From contig DATLUO010000257.1 of NCBI GenBank assembly GCA_035533075.1, positions 1 through 60,165 on the forward strand: a DNA stretch of 60,165 nt, read 5' to 3'. The position numbers and the translations under genes were made by a program. Of the stretch, positions 21,711 through 30,410 are shown one piece after another. Under the pieces are notes generated by a model, which saw only the letters and a list, made by a program, of their open reading frames with translations, searched no databases and was not told where the DNA came from. The first letter of the stretch is position 1; each line of letters starts with the position of its first letter. Origin of the DNA: Pirellulales bacterium (lineage in GTDB: Bacteria; Planctomycetota; Planctomycetia; Pirellulales; JAICIG01).

Positions 21711-21925
21711 GGTGGACCGGCGCCGCTGATTGATTGACGTTGCAACGCACGCGCAATGAAATGACAATGGATCCGCATAAAGGCTTGGCTGCCGCGCGTT
21801 TGACGCCTCGCCGCGTGAAGCCATCAACAAGGAGGTTGAAATGAAAACAGGGAGTAGTGTGGATAAATCGCTTGAGGAACAGAGTCCACAAGCTTCCGAA
21901 CCCAACATTTGAGGGGCAGCACATC

Positions 21926-22165
21926 ATGGCGGCGCCGACGACACTAACCGAACTTGTGGAGCGGTTCGAGCGGAACCGCCCGTCGTATCAGGCTACGGCC
22001 TACAACGAGACGCAGCTCCGCCGCGAGTTTTTAGACCCCTTCTTCAAGGCCCTCGGTTGGGACGTCGACAACGAACGCGGCCACGCCGAAGCCTATAAAG
22101 ACGTCATCCACGAAGACGCCATCAAGGTCAGAAAAAGGGTCAGAACGATTTTGAAATCGTTCTGA
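21926..22165 (+). pseudogene. N-terminal stump of a restriction-modification protein
   Basis: From the ATG at 21926 (GAGGGG upstream) the product reads TELVERFERNRPSYQATAYN, then ETQLRREFLDPFFKALGWDV and YKDVIHEDAIKV. This is the characteristic start of type IIG/Eco57I-like methyltransferase-endonucleases and related restriction enzymes, whose next segment would carry the nuclease motif. Here, after about 68 codons, the frame runs straight into a terminator-like palindrome (22132-22173) and stops at 22165. Full-length relatives are many hundreds of residues, so this is a remnant. It is convergent with the Nudix-SLOG operon. Confidence 0.7.
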
Positions 22166-22202: not shown

Positions 22203-23204
22203 TTAAATTCGGCTCTGCCGGCGCACTGGTACAATCTCGATCTGCAACGGCGGGCCGGAGGCGGTGGCATGCCGGGCATATTGCACGATCTCGCCAGTGC
22301 CACCTCGTTTGCTGTTGACTTCGCCGTCCCACAGGGCGATAAGCAAGTCGCAGCGATTGACGACGTGTCGGCCAACCGCTTCATACATTTCGTTGCGCTC
22401 CGGCCCGTAAACGGCGACAGCTTGACTGGAATGTCCTCCGAGCGGCAGCGAGTACCACTCGGCCGCACGGTGGAGGAATTGTTCGAACTCCGCGGCTGAT
22501 TCGCCGGTGAAGTCGTGCCGATAAAGCTTGAGCGGCAACGGAAGGGGAGAAATCAGCCGATACCCACGGGCCAGCGCCTGCTGCCCGAAGAGTTGATCGG
22601 CGCCGGCCGCCAAGGGCGACAGGGCTTCGATCGCCCGTCCGCCCGCCTCGCGTTCGGCTTTCTCGAAAACCGCGCTCAACTTGCGCGAGATCGCTGCTCG
22701 GTCGTCGCTCCGCAAATCGCGATGGCCGCTGACGCCGATCGCATAAACATCGGGTTTCCGCGCGACCGGCAGCCGGCCCGTCTTGCCGAGAAGCAATGAC
22801 ATCGTGGGGCTGATCGCGCGGCCGTCGTGCATGGCTTCGGCCGAAATTTCCTCACTTCCAAGCCAGGCGTTTTCGGGCCGTTGCTCGATGCGGCACAGCT
22901 CGTCGCCGTTCAGTTCGACGTCGAACAGCTCCATGGTGTACGCCGTCTCGGCGCCTGCACGCCGCGATGTGGCGACGTAGTGGAGCCGTGCGGTCGGGTC
23001 ATCGGCCATCGCCAAGCCGCCGGGTGCGACGCCCAACTCCTCGCCGATCTCGCGCACCAGGCAGTCGCGAAACGTCTCGTCCGCATACCTGTGCCCCCCG
23101 ACGAAATGAAACGCGGCCCATTCGGGATTCCACTGGGCCAGGTACTCGGTTTCACCTGTGCGGCGGCGCGTGATGAGGGCCAGCGCGGCAAGCGACGTTC
23201 TCAT
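22203..23204 (-). CDS. Nudix hydrolase fused to a SLOG-like nucleotide-sensing domain
   Basis: The product is about 333 residues. Residues 1-135 form a Nudix domain with a complete box: GGHRYADETF followed by RDCLVREIGEELGV fits G-x5-E-x7-REUXEEXGU. Nudix enzymes hydrolyse nucleoside diphosphate-linked compounds. Residues 150-333 start VYAIGVSGHRDLRSDDRAAI, and include LSPLAAGADQLFGQQALARG, then CDLLIALWDGEVNSKRGGTG. This Rossmann-like pattern (GHRDL, AxGADQ, DLLIAxWDG, GGTxE) is that of SLOG/LOG-DprA-type domains, which bind nucleotides or related ligands in conflict systems. It is the last gene of a three-gene leftward operon (9-nt gap after the kinase gene). The fusion is unusual; biochemical role is inferred. 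Confidence 0.85.
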   Translation of the reverse strand: MRTSLAALALITRRRTGETEYLAQWNPEWAAFHFVGGHRYADETFRDCLVREIGEELGVAPGGLAMADDPTARLHYVATSRRAGAETAYTMELFDVELNGDELCRIEQRPENAWLGSEEISAEAMHDGRAISPTMSLLLGKTGRLPVARKPDVYAIGVSGHRDLRSDDRAAISRKLSAVFEKAEREAGGRAIEALSPLAAGADQLFGQQALARGYRLISPLPLPLKLYRHDFTGESAAEFEQFLHRAAEWYSLPLGGHSSQAVAVYGPERNEMYEAVGRHVVNRCDLLIALWDGEVNSKRGGTGEIVQYARHATASGPPLQIEIVPVRRQSRI

Positions 23205-23213
23205 GTTGACCCC

Positions 23214-25580
23214 TTAATCTGGTCTGTCAGTGACCATGATCCGACCCAGAATCGGCGTGAGGGCACCGCGAAATTCGCTGCGTTCGAATAGGCGGAGCGT
23301 CTCCTCGACTTTGTTGCCGAGGGCCTTCCAAAGCCGACAGAGCTGTTTGTAGGTGCTGTTGGCCATGCCTCCCCGGCCGGGACTGAGCTCGGCCAGGGCG
23401 TCACGGTAAAATCGCTCACCGATGGAACAATCGCTTAAGATCAAACAAGCTTCACCCTCGCTGGCAAAGACCCAAAAGCGGTCGTTCCGCGCGATATCGG
23501 TCATCCTTCGGCATATTTCGCCGACCTGTTCCGCGTAAGCTGTGGCTTTCGCCGACTCGCAATTGAGCAGCGCGAGCGTCGCGGCGTTGATCCCGGTATA
23601 ATAATCCTTTGTGGCAACGAAGGCTTCTTCGTAGACCATCAATGCTTGGGCGTACATCTGCGCCGCAGTCGTCTTGGCCAAATCGGCAAATTCGCAGTTC
23701 GAGCCTTCCCAACGCCTGTCGCCGGCATCTTTGAACAGTCGTCCGATTCGACCCAGCGTTTCGAAATCGCCGAAGTCCCGCGCGGTGTCACGGAGCTTTT
23801 CCAGCACGGGCTCGGCAAGCGAGGCGAACCCGCACTCGATTTCCAGCAGTACACCTTCGGCGATGAGAGGTATGGCATGGGCCGCGTCTTCACGAATCGT
23901 GACCCTGCTCGCCACACGGGATGAGTCCGCTTCGACCTTGAAAACGGTGTCTTCGATAACGGCCCGGCCCGCTTCGTAGTCCTTCGCCTTCCAGTGGCGA
24001 TGCGCGACGGCCAAGGGGATTCGATAGCTCGGCACGCCGCCTTGGTTGCCGTAGACTTGGAGGCACTCCTGCAGCATGCCCGCTGACCTCGGCATCCGCG
24101 CGGCGGCGACGCCCGCGGCAATGAGGGCATGTTCCGCCGCCGGCTGCTCGTAATTCCAGCGAACATTCAGCAGACCATAGACCACCAAAGCCCAGTACAA
24201 CTCATCGCGCCACTTGTCGCAGCGTTGGTTATGTTCAAAGCCCAACCACAGTGCGGCTTCCTTGCGAATTCGCAGCACGATGGAGGTCAGCGCATCGAGC
24301 TTCTTGATGCCGGTCCGATATACCTTGGGCAGCCTGGAAAGCGTCTCGATTTGCTCGCGGGAGTTGAGACGGCAAGTCAGCTCGTGCAGCCACTCCTCGA
24401 AGGCGAGAAACATGAACATGCGTTGGGCGCGCTCCGCCTCCAGGCTGGGAAGCGAGGGGCCTGGAGTCGGCAGAAACGCCCGCTGCCCCAGCAATCGCGC
24501 TCGCACGCGGCCATCGGACAGAATGCCGGACAGCAGCCGGACCTTGAGCTCGGTCTCGAGTTTGGCGAAGTCCCAGGCCAGCACATTCCGCGGCCGCATT
24601 TCTTCATAATCGAACACGGCGGGATATTCGACCTCGCCGCGCCGGACTCCCACCAGGACGTTTCGGCCGTGCAGGTCGCCGTGCGAGCGGCCTACGAGTG
24701 AATCGGGAAGGTGGTGCTGATGGTCCGGCTCCATCATCCATTCGACGAAGTCAACCGGATCCAGGTACCGCGCCGGTTCGAGGGCCAGGTCGGCGTCGGG
24801 CTTATCGCTGCCGCAGATCAGCCAGACCGCGTCCCGGCGCATCTGGCGGCGGCCGAAATCGGACTTCCACAGCGACAAAACCGGTGCGGCGCTTTGCCCC
24901 ATCCGCAACCGCGCGCGGTAGAATTCGGCGGTCGCTTCCAGACCCGCGGTCGCACCCGGAAAAAACCAGCGGCCCAAATCGGTGAAGACCTGCGAGATGG
25001 CACGCTCCACGGAAAGTGGGTCAGGACGGTCATCGCGCACCGCCCACTCCGCCGCGGTTTCCAACGTCTCGGGGCGGCCGTTTTCGCTGTTCAAGCCGAA
25101 CAGCGTGTACGCATCGCGGTAGAGCACGGCCGCGCGGTCGCCCTCCAGCCCCGCCACGAGGCGCACGGGCGACAGAATGCGGCTGGCGACCTGCCGATCG
25201 TGCGAACAGGCCCGCCAGCCCTCGAAATCCGGCTCAACTTTGCTCCGTTGCCCGACCTTGACGACGTGCGTTTCGTAAGAGCCTGCGTATTTGACCTCGA
25301 TGCCCAAAACGACTTTTTGTCGAAAGTCGGATGAGTAGCCGGTGAAGCAGCGAGATACCAGAATCCGTTCCGGCGGATGTTCGGTCGCCGCTCCCGGTCC
25401 TGCTGCAACATCGTTTGCGACCGAGGGCCGGCCCGCACTTTGCCCGGTGGAATCGGCCGTGGGGCACGTACCCGGCGGAGCGAAGATCACGACCAACTCG
25501 CGTGCCAGCCGCGCGCGGAGCTCGGCGGACAGCGACCCGCTCACGCTGGCGGTAAAATCGACGTGGCAGTCATGAATCAC
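23214..25580 (-). CDS. APH-fold kinase-like protein with C-terminal TRAFs-binding/TPR repeats
   Basis: The product is about 788 residues. An N-lobe strand with lysine (ETHVVKVG, near residue 106) and the catalytic block GRSHGDLHGRNVLVG (near 298) with AVFDYEEM (near 323) mark an aminoglycoside-phosphotransferase/choline-kinase-type kinase. The first 40 residues (IHDCHVDFTASVSGSLSAEL) may be a separate small domain. The C-terminal 350 residues are helical. They contain YYTGINAATLALLNCESAKA, ICRRMTDIA and an EACLILSDCSIGERFYRDAL repeat, matching the TRAFs-binding (DUF4071) TPR-like module seen in bacterial conflict proteins. The GTG at 25580 has GGAAGGTG 5 nt upstream; an ATG at 25658 would overlap the previous gene by 10 nt. 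Target of phosphorylation is unknown. Confidence 0.83.
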   Translation of the reverse strand: MIHDCHVDFTASVSGSLSAELRARLARELVVIFAPPGTCPTADSTGQSAGRPSVANDVAAGPGAATEHPPERILVSRCFTGYSSDFRQKVVLGIEVKYAGSYETHVVKVGQRSKVEPDFEGWRACSHDRQVASRILSPVRLVAGLEGDRAAVLYRDAYTLFGLNSENGRPETLETAAEWAVRDDRPDPLSVERAISQVFTDLGRWFFPGATAGLEATAEFYRARLRMGQSAAPVLSLWKSDFGRRQMRRDAVWLICGSDKPDADLALEPARYLDPVDFVEWMMEPDHQHHLPDSLVGRSHGDLHGRNVLVGVRRGEVEYPAVFDYEEMRPRNVLAWDFAKLETELKVRLLSGILSDGRVRARLLGQRAFLPTPGPSLPSLEAERAQRMFMFLAFEEWLHELTCRLNSREQIETLSRLPKVYRTGIKKLDALTSIVLRIRKEAALWLGFEHNQRCDKWRDELYWALVVYGLLNVRWNYEQPAAEHALIAAGVAAARMPRSAGMLQECLQVYGNQGGVPSYRIPLAVAHRHWKAKDYEAGRAVIEDTVFKVEADSSRVASRVTIREDAAHAIPLIAEGVLLEIECGFASLAEPVLEKLRDTARDFGDFETLGRIGRLFKDAGDRRWEGSNCEFADLAKTTAAQMYAQALMVYEEAFVATKDYYTGINAATLALLNCESAKATAYAEQVGEICRRMTDIARNDRFWVFASEGEACLILSDCSIGERFYRDALAELSPGRGGMANSTYKQLCRLWKALGNKVEETLRLFERSEFRGALTPILGRIMVTDRPD

Positions 25581-25648
25581 GACATCACCTTCCCTTTGTC
25601 GCGCCTTTGCGCCGCGGAGAACGACAACGCGGAAAACGTGCCGGCTAA

Positions 25649-26515
25649 CTATTCGCAATCACCGGCCGCCGCCAGCACGTGCGGCCCCAAGTCCCCCACC
25701 GTCGGCGTCAAACCGTGTGTCAATAGGTTCTGCAATTCGCTTTCGGGCACCCAGCGCCAGGGCATGCCGAAGGCTTTGACCTTGGCTTCCAAGGCATTGC
25801 CCGACGCCCGCAGGTCAACGCCGGGCAAGGACACCTTGCACAGGTAAAAATGATAGTCGCGGTCCACTTGGTATCGCTGGCTGAACTGACGCAGCTCGGC
25901 TTCACTCTCAAGTGTGGACTGCACCCGTCCGTCGTAACCGGTGTCGTCGCGCAATGCCCTCTCGGCGGCTTGTTCGGGCAGTTCTTCGAATCGTGGGCGG
26001 GCGGCGGGAAAGAAAACGTCGCCGTAGCCGGCGTTGGGCACCACCAGAAACTCGCGGCCCACGGGGCCACGGCGGCAAACGATCGCCACGGCCGCCCGCT
26101 GAACGTAGGAAGGATCCACCAGCGCTCGGGCGATCTCTTTGGCCGACCATGAAACGGTGGGCGACGTCAACAAATCTGGCAGGGACAGAAAGTGATAGGC
26201 GCCGGCCGGATCGGCCGAAGGCAGTGGACGGCCAAGCTCGACCTCAAAGACGTGATATCGGTAGTAGGTCGGTTCGCTTGTGCCGTCCGAGGTGTCATAG
26301 GCCGCGACCACCATCAATGGCTGCTTGACGCGCGGCGCCACGGGCGGGCCGTGGTCGAGGAACGCTTGCACGGCCACGTCTTCCAGCTTTTCGCCCGGCC
26401 GCGGCTTCCGCATTGGAAACGTGTCGGCGCTCCAGCGGTCGTTATAGGAAACGAAAAACCATCCGGCTTGATTGTGTGTCACGGCAACGACGACGCTAAC
26501 GGCCCGCAACGACAT
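25649..26515 (-). CDS. Tandem Nudix-like protein (degenerate Nudix boxes)
   Basis: The product is about 288 residues, first in the leftward operon. Two repeats of similar layout are visible. The first runs AVSVVVAVTHNQAGWFFVSY, then FPMRKPRPGEKLEDVAVQAF. The second runs RAAVAIVCRRGPVGREFLVV, then FFPAARPRFEELPEQAAERA, LRDDTGYDG. The spacing matches Nudix domains, but the REUXEEXGU box is degraded in both (AVQAFLDHGP; AERALRDDTGY), so catalysis is doubtful and a ligand-binding role is possible. The ATG at 26515 has AAGGAG 6 nt upstream and is preferred to the ATG at 26548. Its partners encode an APH-type kinase and a Nudix-SLOG fusion. It is divergent from the Ser/Thr kinase operon. Confidence 0.8.
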   Translation of the reverse strand: MSLRAVSVVVAVTHNQAGWFFVSYNDRWSADTFPMRKPRPGEKLEDVAVQAFLDHGPPVAPRVKQPLMVVAAYDTSDGTSEPTYYRYHVFEVELGRPLPSADPAGAYHFLSLPDLLTSPTVSWSAKEIARALVDPSYVQRAAVAIVCRRGPVGREFLVVPNAGYGDVFFPAARPRFEELPEQAAERALRDDTGYDGRVQSTLESEAELRQFSQRYQVDRDYHFYLCKVSLPGVDLRASGNALEAKVKAFGMPWRWVPESELQNLLTHGLTPTVGDLGPHVLAAAGDCE

Positions 26516-26727
26516 GGCTGGCTCCTTGGCTCTGGGAAATTCGTTCATCTGCTAGCTTACCGGGGTGCCCCATCAACTGCCAACGGATTTCGTTGATTTT
26601 GGGTATCATCCACGTTTCGGCCTCCGGGGCGGCTGCCGGCGTAGCATGCGGAAGTGTTGCGCAAAGGCAAGAAGAACCCGCCGCGGAGGCCCGCCCGGTT
26701 GAAGGCGAAAAAAATAACCGCGACGAT

Positions 26728-26756
26728 TTGCAATTGGCCTTGCGTCCCCTTAGACT
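26728..26756 (+). promoter_or_regulatory. Candidate sigma-70-type promoter for the kinase/FHA operon
   Basis: TTGCAA and TAGACT are separated by exactly 17 bp, about 95 nt upstream of the kinase ATG at 26851. It lies in the 335-nt space (26516-26850) between two divergent operons. No second convincing promoter for the leftward operon was identified by eye, and the rest of the space shows no gene. Confidence 0.35.
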
Positions 26757-26850
26757 AGGGGCATTCGTAAGCGGGGGTGAAAGCCGGTTCCACGTCGGGC
26801 CGCGGGCGGCCTGTCGGACTTCTGTCCTTTTGCGAAAAGGTGATGGTGCC

Positions 26851-29430
26851 ATGTCGATCGCGGCAGCGTACTGGGTAGGAACAACGCTCTCCGGCGGACG
26901 TTATCGGATTATCGCCAAGCTGGGCGAAGGCGGGATGGGCGTCGTGTACCGCGCCTGGGATGAGAATATCGCCAACGACGTGGTGGTCAAGGCGCCGCGG
27001 CGGTCGATGATGGACGACCCCGGCTTTGCGGCCCGCTTCAAAGGCGAGATGCGGTCGCTCATCGACTTGCCGCACCCGCACATCGTCAAACTTTCCGATA
27101 TGGGCGAGCACGACGGCCTGCCGTTCGCGGTAATGCAGTTCTTGCCCGGCGGCAGCCTGGAAGACCGGGCCTACGACCGCGAAGGCAAGCCGCGACCGAT
27201 GCCGGTGTCGAGCCTGTCGGGCTGGCTGCCCCACGTCGCCAAAGCGCTGCAGTTCATGCACGGCAAGAACTTTATCCATCGAGACGTCAAGCCGGGCAAC
27301 ATCCTCTTCGATGCCCAAGGAAACGCCTACCTCAGCGATTTCGGGGCATACAAGGCGCTGGCCGGCGGCGAGGCCGCGGCCAAGGCGCACACCGGCACCG
27401 GAATGGTGCTGGGCACGCCGCACTACATGGCCCCCGAACTGGCCAGGGGCGAAGAGGTCGACGGTCGCATCGACCAGTATGCGCTGGCCGTCACGGTCTA
27501 CGAAGTGCTCAGCGGACAGAAGCCGTTCGACGGTCCCAACGGGCTGGCCATCATGTTTCAACACGTGAACCAGGCGGCGCCGCCGCTGGACTCCGTAGCG
27601 CCAGGCATTCCACGGGTCTTGGCCGAGGCCGTGTTGCGCGGCATGGACAAAGACCCCGGCAACCGCTTCAAGTCCTGCACCGCGTTTGCCGGCGCCGCGC
27701 TGGCGGGTCTGAGCGGCGCCACGGCACCGCCGCGGCCCGCCGGTGGCACCGCGGCGTTTACGCCCATTCCCGTATCCGGGGCAGCCGCTGGACCCAAACC
27801 GGCGCCGGTTCCGTTGCCGGTTTCGAGTCCCAACAAGGGAACGCAGCAGACGTTGCGTCCGGCCGTGAAAACGGCGGTCATGGCGGCGGCGCCCGTGCCC
27901 CTTGCGCCGGCACCGGCGGCACCCATTCCCGTTGCGGCAGGCGAAAGACCGCCGCCCGCCACTAGAACTAGACGAAGCAGGCAAAAGAACCCGGCCCTCG
28001 ATTGGCTGAAAAGCCCCGTGGGAATTTCGGTGAGCGTGGCGGGCGGCTTGGTACTCGTGGTGGTTTTGGGCATCGTTATGTCCAGCGGTGACAAGGCTGG
28101 CAAGCCGGTGCCCCCGAAGCCTCCGAAGATCGTAAATGACCCTGTAAAGCCGAAGCCCGATCCCGATCGGTCTACGACGCCTGTGGTGACGGACTCGTAC
28201 GACCCAGGGGCAGAGGCGAATCTGAAGAAAGCGATCAGTGACTGGAACGCGCTGGCGAACGAGATCGAAGCCGAACTGCCCCTCCCGCCGGCAAGCCTCG
28301 TCAATGCGAGGACGTACAACTCGCTGGCAGACCTGCAGACGGCCGCGGACAAAGCCGACGGCCAGCGCAATTCCCTCGGCTCGGACTGGCGCATTGACAA
28401 GCTGGAAAACACGGCGGTCAAGTTCGAGGACGATCTGGCGAGTCTCCAGAACGTGTCCATCAAGTCGCAAACGGCCGAAGACGCACTGAAGGTGTTGGCG
28501 CGCGATGTCGCCGCGCTCAAGAATCGCATGGCTAAGATCAAGGACCAGTTGTCAACCTCGATCGCGCAAAGCCCAGAGGTGCAAGCCAAGCTGGCCTCGC
28601 TCCGGGAATCGGAACGTAAAAAAAATGGCAACGGAAATGATCCCGTCCCGCCTCCGCCGCCTCGACCCGACTACACACCGCCTGGTCCGACTACGCAGTG
28701 GGTCGCGTCGATTTCGCTGCCCGGTGGCGGATCGCTGGCGCCGGGCGATTTGAATTTGAATGACGTCCAGCTCACGAAGTACGACAAAGGGATGTCCCCG
28801 AAGGCCTATGCGTTCAAGAACGAAAAGTCGCCCAAAGGCGGATTGCTGGTGCATGCGAGCTTTAGCGCGAATACGGGACAATCGCTCAACCTCGACGGCT
28901 GGACCATCTGTCGCTACGAGAACGGCTCGCCCAAGCTCGTGGCTCAATTCGAGGAGAATGACCGGAGTGGTCCCTTGCGGTATTGGGAGTCAAACAAGCT
29001 GCGGTTATACGCGGAGTACAAGAACGACAAGCTACACGGGCTGGCCTGCTACCTCAACAATAACGGTGCGCCGCTCGTGGCGCTGAACTATTCGGGCAAT
29101 CGGCTTAGGAACAAGTACCTGGTCGATTATAAAAACGGCACGCCGCAGGCCGTAGCGGTCGACGGCACGGATGCCGGGCTGGACCAACAGTTCGCCGGCT
29201 ATGCGCAGCAATTCCAGGATATGGCCGCGGACATCAAGCAGAAAGAGATCGAGTTTAAAGCTGCGCTCCGAGACGCTTACGAAAAGCTGCAGAAGCAGGC
29301 GGTTGCGCAGCAAAACAAGACGCGGCGCCAGCGCGACAAGCTCAATGAGGCGAAGGCCCGAGCGGCAAACAATGCCGCCGCGGCCCGTACCATCAGCGCC
29401 ATCGCCATCGGCACCGGGGCGGGGTTCTGA
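26851..29430 (+). CDS. Transmembrane Ser/Thr protein kinase with MORN-like C-terminal part
   Basis: The product is about 859 residues. The Hanks-type kinase domain (about 18-285) carries LGEGGMGVVYRAWD, the lysine in VVVKAP, HRDVKPGNILFD (near 143), LSDFGAYK, and GTPHYMAPELARG. All catalytic residues are present. A Pro/Ala linker and one TM segment (about 391-410, VSVAGGLVLVVVLGIVM) follow. The C-terminal half has coiled coil, then repeats of the style CRYENGSPKLVAQFEEND and YAEYKNDKLHGLACYLNNNG (MORN/YwqK-like, near 680-760), and a final coiled coil. The ATG at 26851 has AAAAGG upstream; the frame is open to 26593 with no sensible protein. It heads an operon with FHA genes, whose domains bind phosphothreonine. 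That makes it the likely kinase of the relay. Confidence 0.9.
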   Translation: MSIAAAYWVGTTLSGGRYRIIAKLGEGGMGVVYRAWDENIANDVVVKAPRRSMMDDPGFAARFKGEMRSLIDLPHPHIVKLSDMGEHDGLPFAVMQFLPGGSLEDRAYDREGKPRPMPVSSLSGWLPHVAKALQFMHGKNFIHRDVKPGNILFDAQGNAYLSDFGAYKALAGGEAAAKAHTGTGMVLGTPHYMAPELARGEEVDGRIDQYALAVTVYEVLSGQKPFDGPNGLAIMFQHVNQAAPPLDSVAPGIPRVLAEAVLRGMDKDPGNRFKSCTAFAGAALAGLSGATAPPRPAGGTAAFTPIPVSGAAAGPKPAPVPLPVSSPNKGTQQTLRPAVKTAVMAAAPVPLAPAPAAPIPVAAGERPPPATRTRRSRQKNPALDWLKSPVGISVSVAGGLVLVVVLGIVMSSGDKAGKPVPPKPPKIVNDPVKPKPDPDRSTTPVVTDSYDPGAEANLKKAISDWNALANEIEAELPLPPASLVNARTYNSLADLQTAADKADGQRNSLGSDWRIDKLENTAVKFEDDLASLQNVSIKSQTAEDALKVLARDVAALKNRMAKIKDQLSTSIAQSPEVQAKLASLRESERKKNGNGNDPVPPPPPRPDYTPPGPTTQWVASISLPGGGSLAPGDLNLNDVQLTKYDKGMSPKAYAFKNEKSPKGGLLVHASFSANTGQSLNLDGWTICRYENGSPKLVAQFEENDRSGPLRYWESNKLRLYAEYKNDKLHGLACYLNNNGAPLVALNYSGNRLRNKYLVDYKNGTPQAVAVDGTDAGLDQQFAGYAQQFQDMAADIKQKEIEFKAALRDAYEKLQKQAVAQQNKTRRQRDKLNEAKARAANNAAAARTISAIAIGTGAGF

Positions 29431-29441
29431 GGAGTCGGCCG

Positions 29442-30410
29442 ATGAGCACTTGTCCCTACTGTCAGCATTCACAGGTACCGGCCGGCGCCACAGCTTGCCC
29501 AAGGTGCAATACGCTGCTCGATCCGGCGGTGAATCAGAGCACGCCGGCCGGCACGCGCCAGGAATCGGCGGCCGACCTCAACCGCTGGATTGCGGCCGCG
29601 CGCGCGGCCGAACCGCCGCCGGAGGTGAAGATCATCCAACGCGAACCGGCCGCGCGCGCGCCGGCACCTCCGTCCGCAGCCACCGAGAACGACGGGTCGC
29701 AGCCGTTTCGACCGACGTTGCGGCCGCCGATGTTGGTGCTGTGCGTCGTCGATCAGGGACGCGACGGCGGCGAATTTCGGCGGATCCGCGGCGACCGGGC
29801 CGTCATCGGCCGCGCCGAGGGCGACCTGGTGATTTCGCACGATCCGGGCATCTCCGGCCAGCATGCCGAGCTGGTGCGCCTGGAGAGCGGCGGCCGCTTG
29901 CGCTGGTGGTTGCAAGACCTGCAAAGCCGCAACGGCACGTTTGCCCGTTGCAACGAGGCCCCGCTGGAGCACGAACAAGAGTTTATGGTCGGCATGCGAC
30001 GGTTTCGCTTCGAGATGGCCGGCGCGGCCCCGGCGGAGCCGGCGGAGCCGGCGACGCCGCCCGGACCGGCCCGCATCACGACCCAGGGATGGCAGACGGT
30101 GACGCCGGCCGATCTCTCGCGGCTTGCTCCCTCGCTGGTCGAGCTGACGCCGACGGGCACCGGCACGCGCACGCCCTTGGCGGCCGCCGAACACTGGATC
30201 GGCAGCGACGCGGAGTGTACGGTCGTGGTCGCCGACGATCCTTTTGTGGGTCGGCGGCACGCCAAGATCGTTCGTACGCCGCAAGGCCGCTGGCGGATCG
30301 AAGACGGCCCTTCGCGCAACGGCACGTGGCTGCGCGTCCGCAGAATTCCGATCGATACGACGGCCGAGTTTCAGATGGGCGAGCAGCGCTTCGCGGTCAA
30401 GGTGTGTTGA
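29442..30410 (+). CDS. Zinc-ribbon protein with two FHA domains
   Basis: The product is about 322 residues. A four-cysteine zinc ribbon opens it (CPYC at 4-7, CPRC at 19-22). After a Pro/Ala linker come two FHA domains. The first (about 85-185) has VIGRAEGDLVISHDPGISGQ, then HAELVRLE and QSRNGTFARC. The second (about 235-320) has WIGSDAECTVVVADDPFVG, then RRHAKIVR and GPSRNGTWLRVR. Both keep the Arg, Ser/Gly-x-x-His and Asn-Gly residues for phosphothreonine binding. It lies 11 nt after the kinase gene and 2 nt before the next FHA gene, so the three are surely co-transcribed. A scaffold or adaptor role is inferred. Confidence 0.9.
   Translation: MSTCPYCQHSQVPAGATACPRCNTLLDPAVNQSTPAGTRQESAADLNRWIAAARAAEPPPEVKIIQREPAARAPAPPSAATENDGSQPFRPTLRPPMLVLCVVDQGRDGGEFRRIRGDRAVIGRAEGDLVISHDPGISGQHAELVRLESGGRLRWWLQDLQSRNGTFARCNEAPLEHEQEFMVGMRRFRFEMAGAAPAEPAEPATPPGPARITTQGWQTVTPADLSRLAPSLVELTPTGTGTRTPLAAAEHWIGSDAECTVVVADDPFVGRRHAKIVRTPQGRWRIEDGPSRNGTWLRVRRIPIDTTAEFQMGEQRFAVKVC

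Follow-up and report, generated by a model that had tools for sequence, protein, structure and literature searches.

A dead Nudix domain followed by a live one forms the recurrent core of the three-gene operon (genes A, B and C) that we analysed in a 60,165-nucleotide stretch of a Pirellulales genome, referred to here as the window, and the kinase with a TPR-S region that accompanies the pair in this operon is one of several partners. We read the operon as a sporadic host module in which an NAD/ADP-ribose-type signal would be sensed by the SLOG, TPR-S and dead Nudix parts, the kinase would act and the live Nudix domain would erase the signal, a reading to which we assign a probability of about 0.5. 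Such a module is probably one of biological conflict directed against invaders, and phages may be among its targets.

The genome of the window (G000, a planctomycete) comprises 8.5 Mb in 296 contigs. An ORF check placed the genes in the order A-B-C on the minus strand from 26515 to 22203, in agreement with the three tightly packed minus-strand genes described in an earlier note on this DNA. Gene A (25649..26515, minus strand) encodes 288 residues from ATG 26515, which is preceded by an AAGGAG ribosome-binding site. The open frame of gene B runs from 25658 to 23214 on the minus strand and yields 814 residues from TTG 25658; judged by the position of a GGGAAGG ribosome-binding site, the start is more likely GTG 25580 (gene B, 23214..25580), and residues 1-28 of the 814-residue form have a pLDDT below 50 in the AF2 model. 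Gene C (22203..23204, minus strand, 333 residues) starts at ATG 23204, 9 bp past the stop of gene B and behind AAGGGG. Since 68 bp separate the end of gene A from the likely GTG of gene B and only 9 bp separate B from C, transcription of the three genes together is plausible. Promoter and terminator scans of the locus remained at shuffle background, and an Rfam search of the locus gave no match.

Gene A consists of two catalytically degenerate Nudix domains in tandem, as had been proposed. The Pfam NUDIX model matched the second half alone (E 3e-5, residues 140-263), within the second pseudo-Nudix domain A2 (residues 133-288; 25652..26119, minus strand). The first domain, A1 (residues 1-132; 26120..26515, minus strand), was assigned as a degenerate Nudix domain because its family profile matched the profile of C-type live Nudix domains with an hhalign probability of 96.9, and members of this family adjoin active Nudix domains elsewhere. 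In a motif scan, the strict Nudix box, defined by the pattern GX5EX7REUXEEXGU, was missing from both halves; gene A is thus a Nudix homologue by profile only and lacks the catalytic box. Outside the window, a profile search found A2 only in the triple-Nudix proteins of loci L035 and L036.

Gene B joins an APH-fold kinase to a TPR-S region. Pfam assigned TCAD9 (3e-23, with matches at 24201-24788 and 24945-25313) and TPR-S (PF20308; 1.5e-9, 38.8 bits vs a cut-off of 27.6) to the protein, and the AF2 model had a pLDDT of 83. The kinase region covers residues about 91-490 (24189..25388, minus strand). In a structure search, the N-terminal part of the model matched APH-type and sugar kinases at Z 12-14, including aminoglycoside, maltose and methylthioribose kinases, and the VVKVG, HGDLHGRN and FDYEE motifs named in the earlier note are present, the last as VFDYEE. 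The protein therefore has the N-lobe Lys, the HGDxHxxN loop, the metal-binding Asp and the fold of the APH/choline kinase superfamily, and HGDLH-x-[RQ]N is kept in 10 of 10 TCAD9 kinases compared. The TPR-S region (residues 491-814; 23217..24188, minus strand) resembles the ASK1 central regulatory region (CRR), with ASK1 CRR structure 5ulm as the best structural match of the C-terminus (Z 14.7, 252 residues aligned over 288-812). The C-terminus had been described as TRAFs-binding/TPR repeats; the TPR repeat region stood, and the TRAFs-binding name did not, since the Pfam model MAP3K_TRAF_bd reached only 0.035 and TPR-S, with its ASK1 CRR fold, fits better. Gene B was missing in all 39 nearest relatives searched, and a plasmid search with it gave no match. 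Weak TCAD9 matches occurred in half of all genomes, resembled ordinary APH kinases and were disregarded. The phylum sample contained additional loci positive for TCAD9 (L097-L116), most of them without a match to the Nudix, TPR-S or SLOG profiles of this analysis, so TCAD9 alone is not diagnostic of the module.

Gene C encodes an active-type Nudix hydrolase (residues 1-146; 22767..23204, minus strand) fused to a YpsA-like SLOG domain (residues 152-328; 22221..22751, minus strand), and both the complete Nudix box and the SLOG-like domain anticipated by the earlier note are present. The Pfam NUDIX match (3e-8) lay above the cut-off, and the strict box, at about residues 37-56, is intact (GHRYADETFRDCLVREIGEE). 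In the AlphaFold model of the protein (mean pLDDT 86), the Nudix domain matched Nudix hydrolase structures at Z about 14, so that box and fold together identify it as a Nudix hydrolase. Among solved proteins, its best relatives are MutT/Nudix proteins of a generic kind, and the substrate is not readable from the sequence. The C-terminal domain, whose modelling as anything other than SLOG had been named as grounds for giving up the proposal, has B. subtilis YpsA (2nx2) as its best structural match (Z 16.8, 158 residues aligned, rmsd 2.9), with DprA also among the Foldseek matches, and its motifs G.TGHR, GAD and GGT in the alignment place it in the YpsA clade of the SLOG superfamily. In other loci, homologues of this SLOG domain form fusions with SLATT. 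A plasmid search with gene C returned SLOG matches only and no Nudix. These SLOG relatives are on plasmids from other phyla. One, on the conjugative plasmid p4 of Rhizobium binae (L143, 3632-6001), belongs to a TIR - caspase - SLOG (DUF1273) - TIR operon, which likely serves in TIR/caspase defence and has SLOG as an additional gene, and another, on a Caballeronia plasmid, lies near TIR and TPR-cyclase genes.

We searched 298 planctomycete genomes of one class first with gene C and in a second round with a profile built on its Nudix domain. The profile scores were sharply separated: 15 places exceeded 180 bits, and those of the second group did not rise above about 100 bits. A peptide-pattern search of genome contigs for close relatives found one locus, on contig G435:C359. 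The 15 places, this locus (L001) and a broken copy in G229 constitute the clade-1 set (n=17); the counts that follow rest on draft genomes, and some of the loci (L034, L037, L129) run up against contig ends. Apart from L032, every clade-1 locus has the strict Nudix box intact in its C-type domain, and no A1 or A2 domain has it. Eleven of the 17 loci have an A1-type dead Nudix domain, either upstream of the live gene and on its strand or within one chain with the live domain, and in the ten besides the window, the spacing between A1 and the live domain ranges from an overlap to a 96-bp gap, or the two are fused. Only in the window, among the loci that carry A1, does gene B stand between the dead and the live Nudix. 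Because the A1 profile matched only 11 of the 298 genomes and 10 of 156 genera, A1 is not simply common. The converse count, that 9/12 A1 genes adjoin a live Nudix domain, was dropped as a test since the A1 profile had been built from adjacent genes, and linkage was used in one direction only, from the Nudix domain to its neighbours.

At least six further loci (L001, L035, L040, L043, L044 and L047) combine a dead Nudix, a live Nudix and a TCAD9/TPR-S kinase, and the homologues are thus not scattered apart from one another, the outcome that the earlier note had said would refute its proposal of the trio as a system. The co-occurrence of the three component types was borne out in this way, and the exact trio as the conserved unit was not: the pair also occurs without the kinase (L034, L036 and L037), and apart from the window, SLOG fused to a clade-1 Nudix domain was observed in G145 alone. 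The G145 protein is the closest full-length homologue of gene C (44% identity over 329 residues). Directly after this Nudix-SLOG homologue come a TIR gene and, next, the gene of a membrane protein that matches TrkA_N and RyR (L032:9563-12522); the two genes could encode a ligand-gated channel or a module for transport.

A gene with a Pfam TPR-S match lies within about 5 kb of the Nudix domain in 11 of the 17 clade-1 loci. This Pfam model is independent of our analysis and finds 2-5 TPR-S genes per genome in most clade-1 genomes; under uniform placement, the linkage would arise by chance with a probability of about 2e-19, a figure that ignores relatedness and gives an order of magnitude only. 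TPR-S, TIR, DUF4062, RyR or SLOG partners were found in 14 of the 17 loci, the exceptions being L036, L038 and L042, and the nine control loci of the neighbouring Nudix clade contained no A1, TCAD9, TPR-S, TIR, DUF4062, RyR or SLOG gene. The live Nudix domain is fused to TIR-NB-ARC-TPR in L034 and L041, to DUF4062-STAND-TPR in L043 and to the TCAD9 kinase in L039 and L044. A kinase-TPR-S protein, or a kinase beside TPR-S, is present in L001, L035, L039, L040, L043, L044, L047 and L050. In L037 a TPR-S-cyclase has an N-terminal RyR domain, in L040 a TPR-S protein has a C-terminal RyR match, and the TPR-S-cyclases of L037, L039 and L044 have a SLOG match between TPR-S and cyclase. Separate TIR genes adjoin L032, L037 and L130, and separate RyR genes adjoin L039, L043, L044, L130 and L131. 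The tree of the Nudix domains, with 3 of its 17 inner branches well supported, was too short to resolve exchange of partners.

Several loci showed further features. In L131 (8390-9449), a dead Nudix gene has an RyR gene alone beside it as a minimal pair, and no live Nudix was found there. At L054 (8373-8943), a clade-1 Nudix gene that adjoins a TPR-S-cyclase gene is split in two frames and represents a decaying copy or an assembly error. The live Nudix gene of L042 (7466-8134) overlaps that of a 222-residue membrane protein; this protein, which carries a CxxC motif at its N-terminus and matches no Pfam family significantly, is possibly a membrane effector. A phage search with the clade-1 Nudix of L001 gave no match, and the Nudix profile gave two weak matches (33% over 52 residues) on viral contigs.

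We recognised no known defence island around the window. PADLOC gave no match to A or B and a weak, generic match of 30 residues of the Nudix box of C to PDC-S07. Neither Pfam on the flanking genes nor phmmer detected a TIR domain in the window. The genome has four TIR matches, on other contigs, and at L147 (G000:C252, 6080-7073, minus strand), two overlapping TIR genes lie beside ORFs of 242, 463 and 746 residues without Pfam matches, possibly a TIR defence operon and a source of the signal. The RyR search of the genome gave no match, and its control was silent as well. Upstream of the operon and on the opposite strand (26593-30410, plus strand), a divergent Ser/Thr protein kinase gene (945-residue ORF) is followed by an FHA-domain gene. 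The kinase gene matched PADLOC PD-T4-6, a possible sign of a defence island that we set aside, as Ser/Thr kinases are frequent in planctomycetes. Just downstream of gene C, a 102-residue ORF (21857-22165, plus strand), the end part of which matches HSDR_N (E 9e-5), is apparently a truncated gene of a type I restriction R subunit.

Bacteria are known to possess enzymes for the synthesis and the reading of NAD-derived immune nucleotides; to our knowledge, how the host itself limits or ends such a signal has been little studied. TPR-S is reportedly predicted by Burroughs and Aravind (2020, J Bacteriol) to read NAD-derived signals. We take the ligand to be NAD-derived because the partners of the Nudix pair are TIR, DUF4062, RyR, SLOG and TPR-S domains. 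Sensing of cADPR has been described for YpsA-like SLOGs, and cleavage of ADPR for Nudix enzymes (PMC9503650); DUF4062 proteins belong with the TIR-like NADases (PMC13174449), and phage proteins with RyR domains either cleave 2'/3'cADPR or bind it (PMC13232231). In the proposed module, the SLOG domain of C, TPR-S of B and the dead Nudix pair of A would be ligand sensors or scaffolds; A would sense or scaffold without erasing, and C would sense as well as erase. Binding of the ligand would release or assemble the APH-fold kinase of B, which may phosphorylate a small molecule or another component, and the live Nudix of C would hydrolyse the nucleotide and thereby set a threshold and end the response. 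The sporadic spread, with B missing in the 39 nearest relatives and A1 in only 10 of 156 genera, suits an accessory conflict module. Against this reading of the module, we count that the operon in the window has no signal-generating NADase of its own, that the solved relatives of C are too generic to point to a substrate, that three clade-1 loci are without an NAD-type partner, that PADLOC recognised neither A nor B and in C only a generic Nudix, and that no known defence island was recognised nearby.

It is unlikely, though worth weighing, that the nucleotide is not derived from NAD and that C is a diadenosine-polyphosphate or MutT-type housecleaning Nudix, in a module for an alarmone or damaged-nucleotide stress response with a kinase output. 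The closest solved sequences and folds of C do include MutT, Ap4A and NTP pyrophosphohydrolases, and in the alignment an aromatic residue lies about 17 positions past the Nudix box (LEYxAxS), which we presume to resemble the tyrosine reported for ApnA hydrolases. Nevertheless, the recurrent fusions with, and proximity to, TIR, DUF4062, RyR and SLOG domains suit NAD-derived ligands better, and the nine loci of the neighbouring Nudix clade are without such linkage. We consider it quite unlikely that the Nudix domain of C is instead a toxic effector, which once released would deplete NAD(H), CoA or another essential nucleotide and lead to abortive infection, with A as an inactive paralogue serving as antidote or inhibitor. 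The strict pairing of dead and live Nudix, the dead one first and the genes overlapping or nearly so, would agree with this, as would the position of the live Nudix at the N-terminus of STAND fusion proteins, which is typical of effectors; however, a TIR or DUF4062 NADase already occupies the effector slot of the fusions and would make the Nudix redundant. That the kinase is the main enzyme, a phosphotransferase for antibiotic-like small molecules with the Nudix proteins as accessory nucleotide recyclers, is very improbable, for although its fold, motifs and structural matches are those of APH-type kinases, it carries the ASK1-like TPR-S C-terminus, is linked to TIR, RyR and cyclase genes and is absent from three loci with the Nudix pair.

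Within the preferred reading of an NAD/ADP-ribose signalling module, we tentatively suggest that the Nudix pair may be an undescribed, exchangeable host cassette, a reader and eraser of NAD-derived immune nucleotides. Different partners, namely NLR-like proteins with TIR or DUF4062, RyR-TPR-S-cyclases and ASK1-like kinases, might take it up to adjust and terminate the alarm; in the version found in the window, the eraser would be extended by a SLOG sensor, and a kinase would serve as output. A live Nudix domain of the host, in most loci accompanied by a dead homologue and repeatedly located beside or within proteins with TIR, DUF4062, RyR, SLOG or TPR-S domains, offers a concrete candidate for the step that limits or ends the signal. 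According to a 2026 RyDEP preprint, no enzyme that degrades 2'cADPR or 3'cADPR was known before the phage RyR proteins (PMC13232231).

TPR-S, TCAD9, SLOG and RyR are already known as parts of conflict systems. In the literature examined, a scope outside which Burroughs and Aravind 2020 falls, we found no description of a recurring dead/live Nudix core or of a kinase and TPR-S in one chain. By linkage, the operon resembles TPR-S (PF20308) systems, as B has TPR-S and the related loci have RyR-TPR-S-cyclase, TIR and SLOG partners. TCAD9, named in PMC10910872, derives from the vWA-MoxR ternary conflict systems (PMC7159879), the description of which also includes active APH-type kinases and Nudix domains among the effectors (PMC7159879). 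The operon shares the TCAD9 domain of B with these systems, whereas the flanking genes scanned with Pfam include neither a vWA nor a MoxR gene, which sets it apart from them. The YpsA-type SLOG of C and the TIR genes adjoining the related loci recall Thoeris and other TIR-SLOG (cADPR) defence. Thoeris combines a TIR protein, ThsB, with a SLOG- or Macro-bearing ThsA in one operon, whereas the operon in the window is without TIR, SIR2, caspase or membrane effector and thus lies outside Thoeris. DUF4062 behind the live Nudix in the L043 fusion is a likeness to Swarozyc, the DUF4062 TIR-like NADases (PMC13174449), while no DUF4062 gene was found at the window locus. ASK1 (MAP3K5) likewise combines a kinase with a TPR/central regulatory region fold, but the kinase of B is APH-fold and N-terminal and not a Ser/Thr kinase. 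TRPM2 combines the SLOG-fold MHR1/2 with NUDT9H for ADPR, and NUDT9H hydrolyses ADPR in invertebrates and is inactive in vertebrates (PMC13143021, PMC7555694). A SLOG-fold sensor thus stands with a Nudix domain in both cases, with active and inactive Nudix versions known, and in TRPM2 one ligand, ADPR, is involved; the window locus has no channel, and the likeness would be one of working and not of membership. In these terms, the locus may be seen as a bacterial counterpart of both the SLOG and Nudix logic of TRPM2 and the kinase and TPR logic of ASK1.
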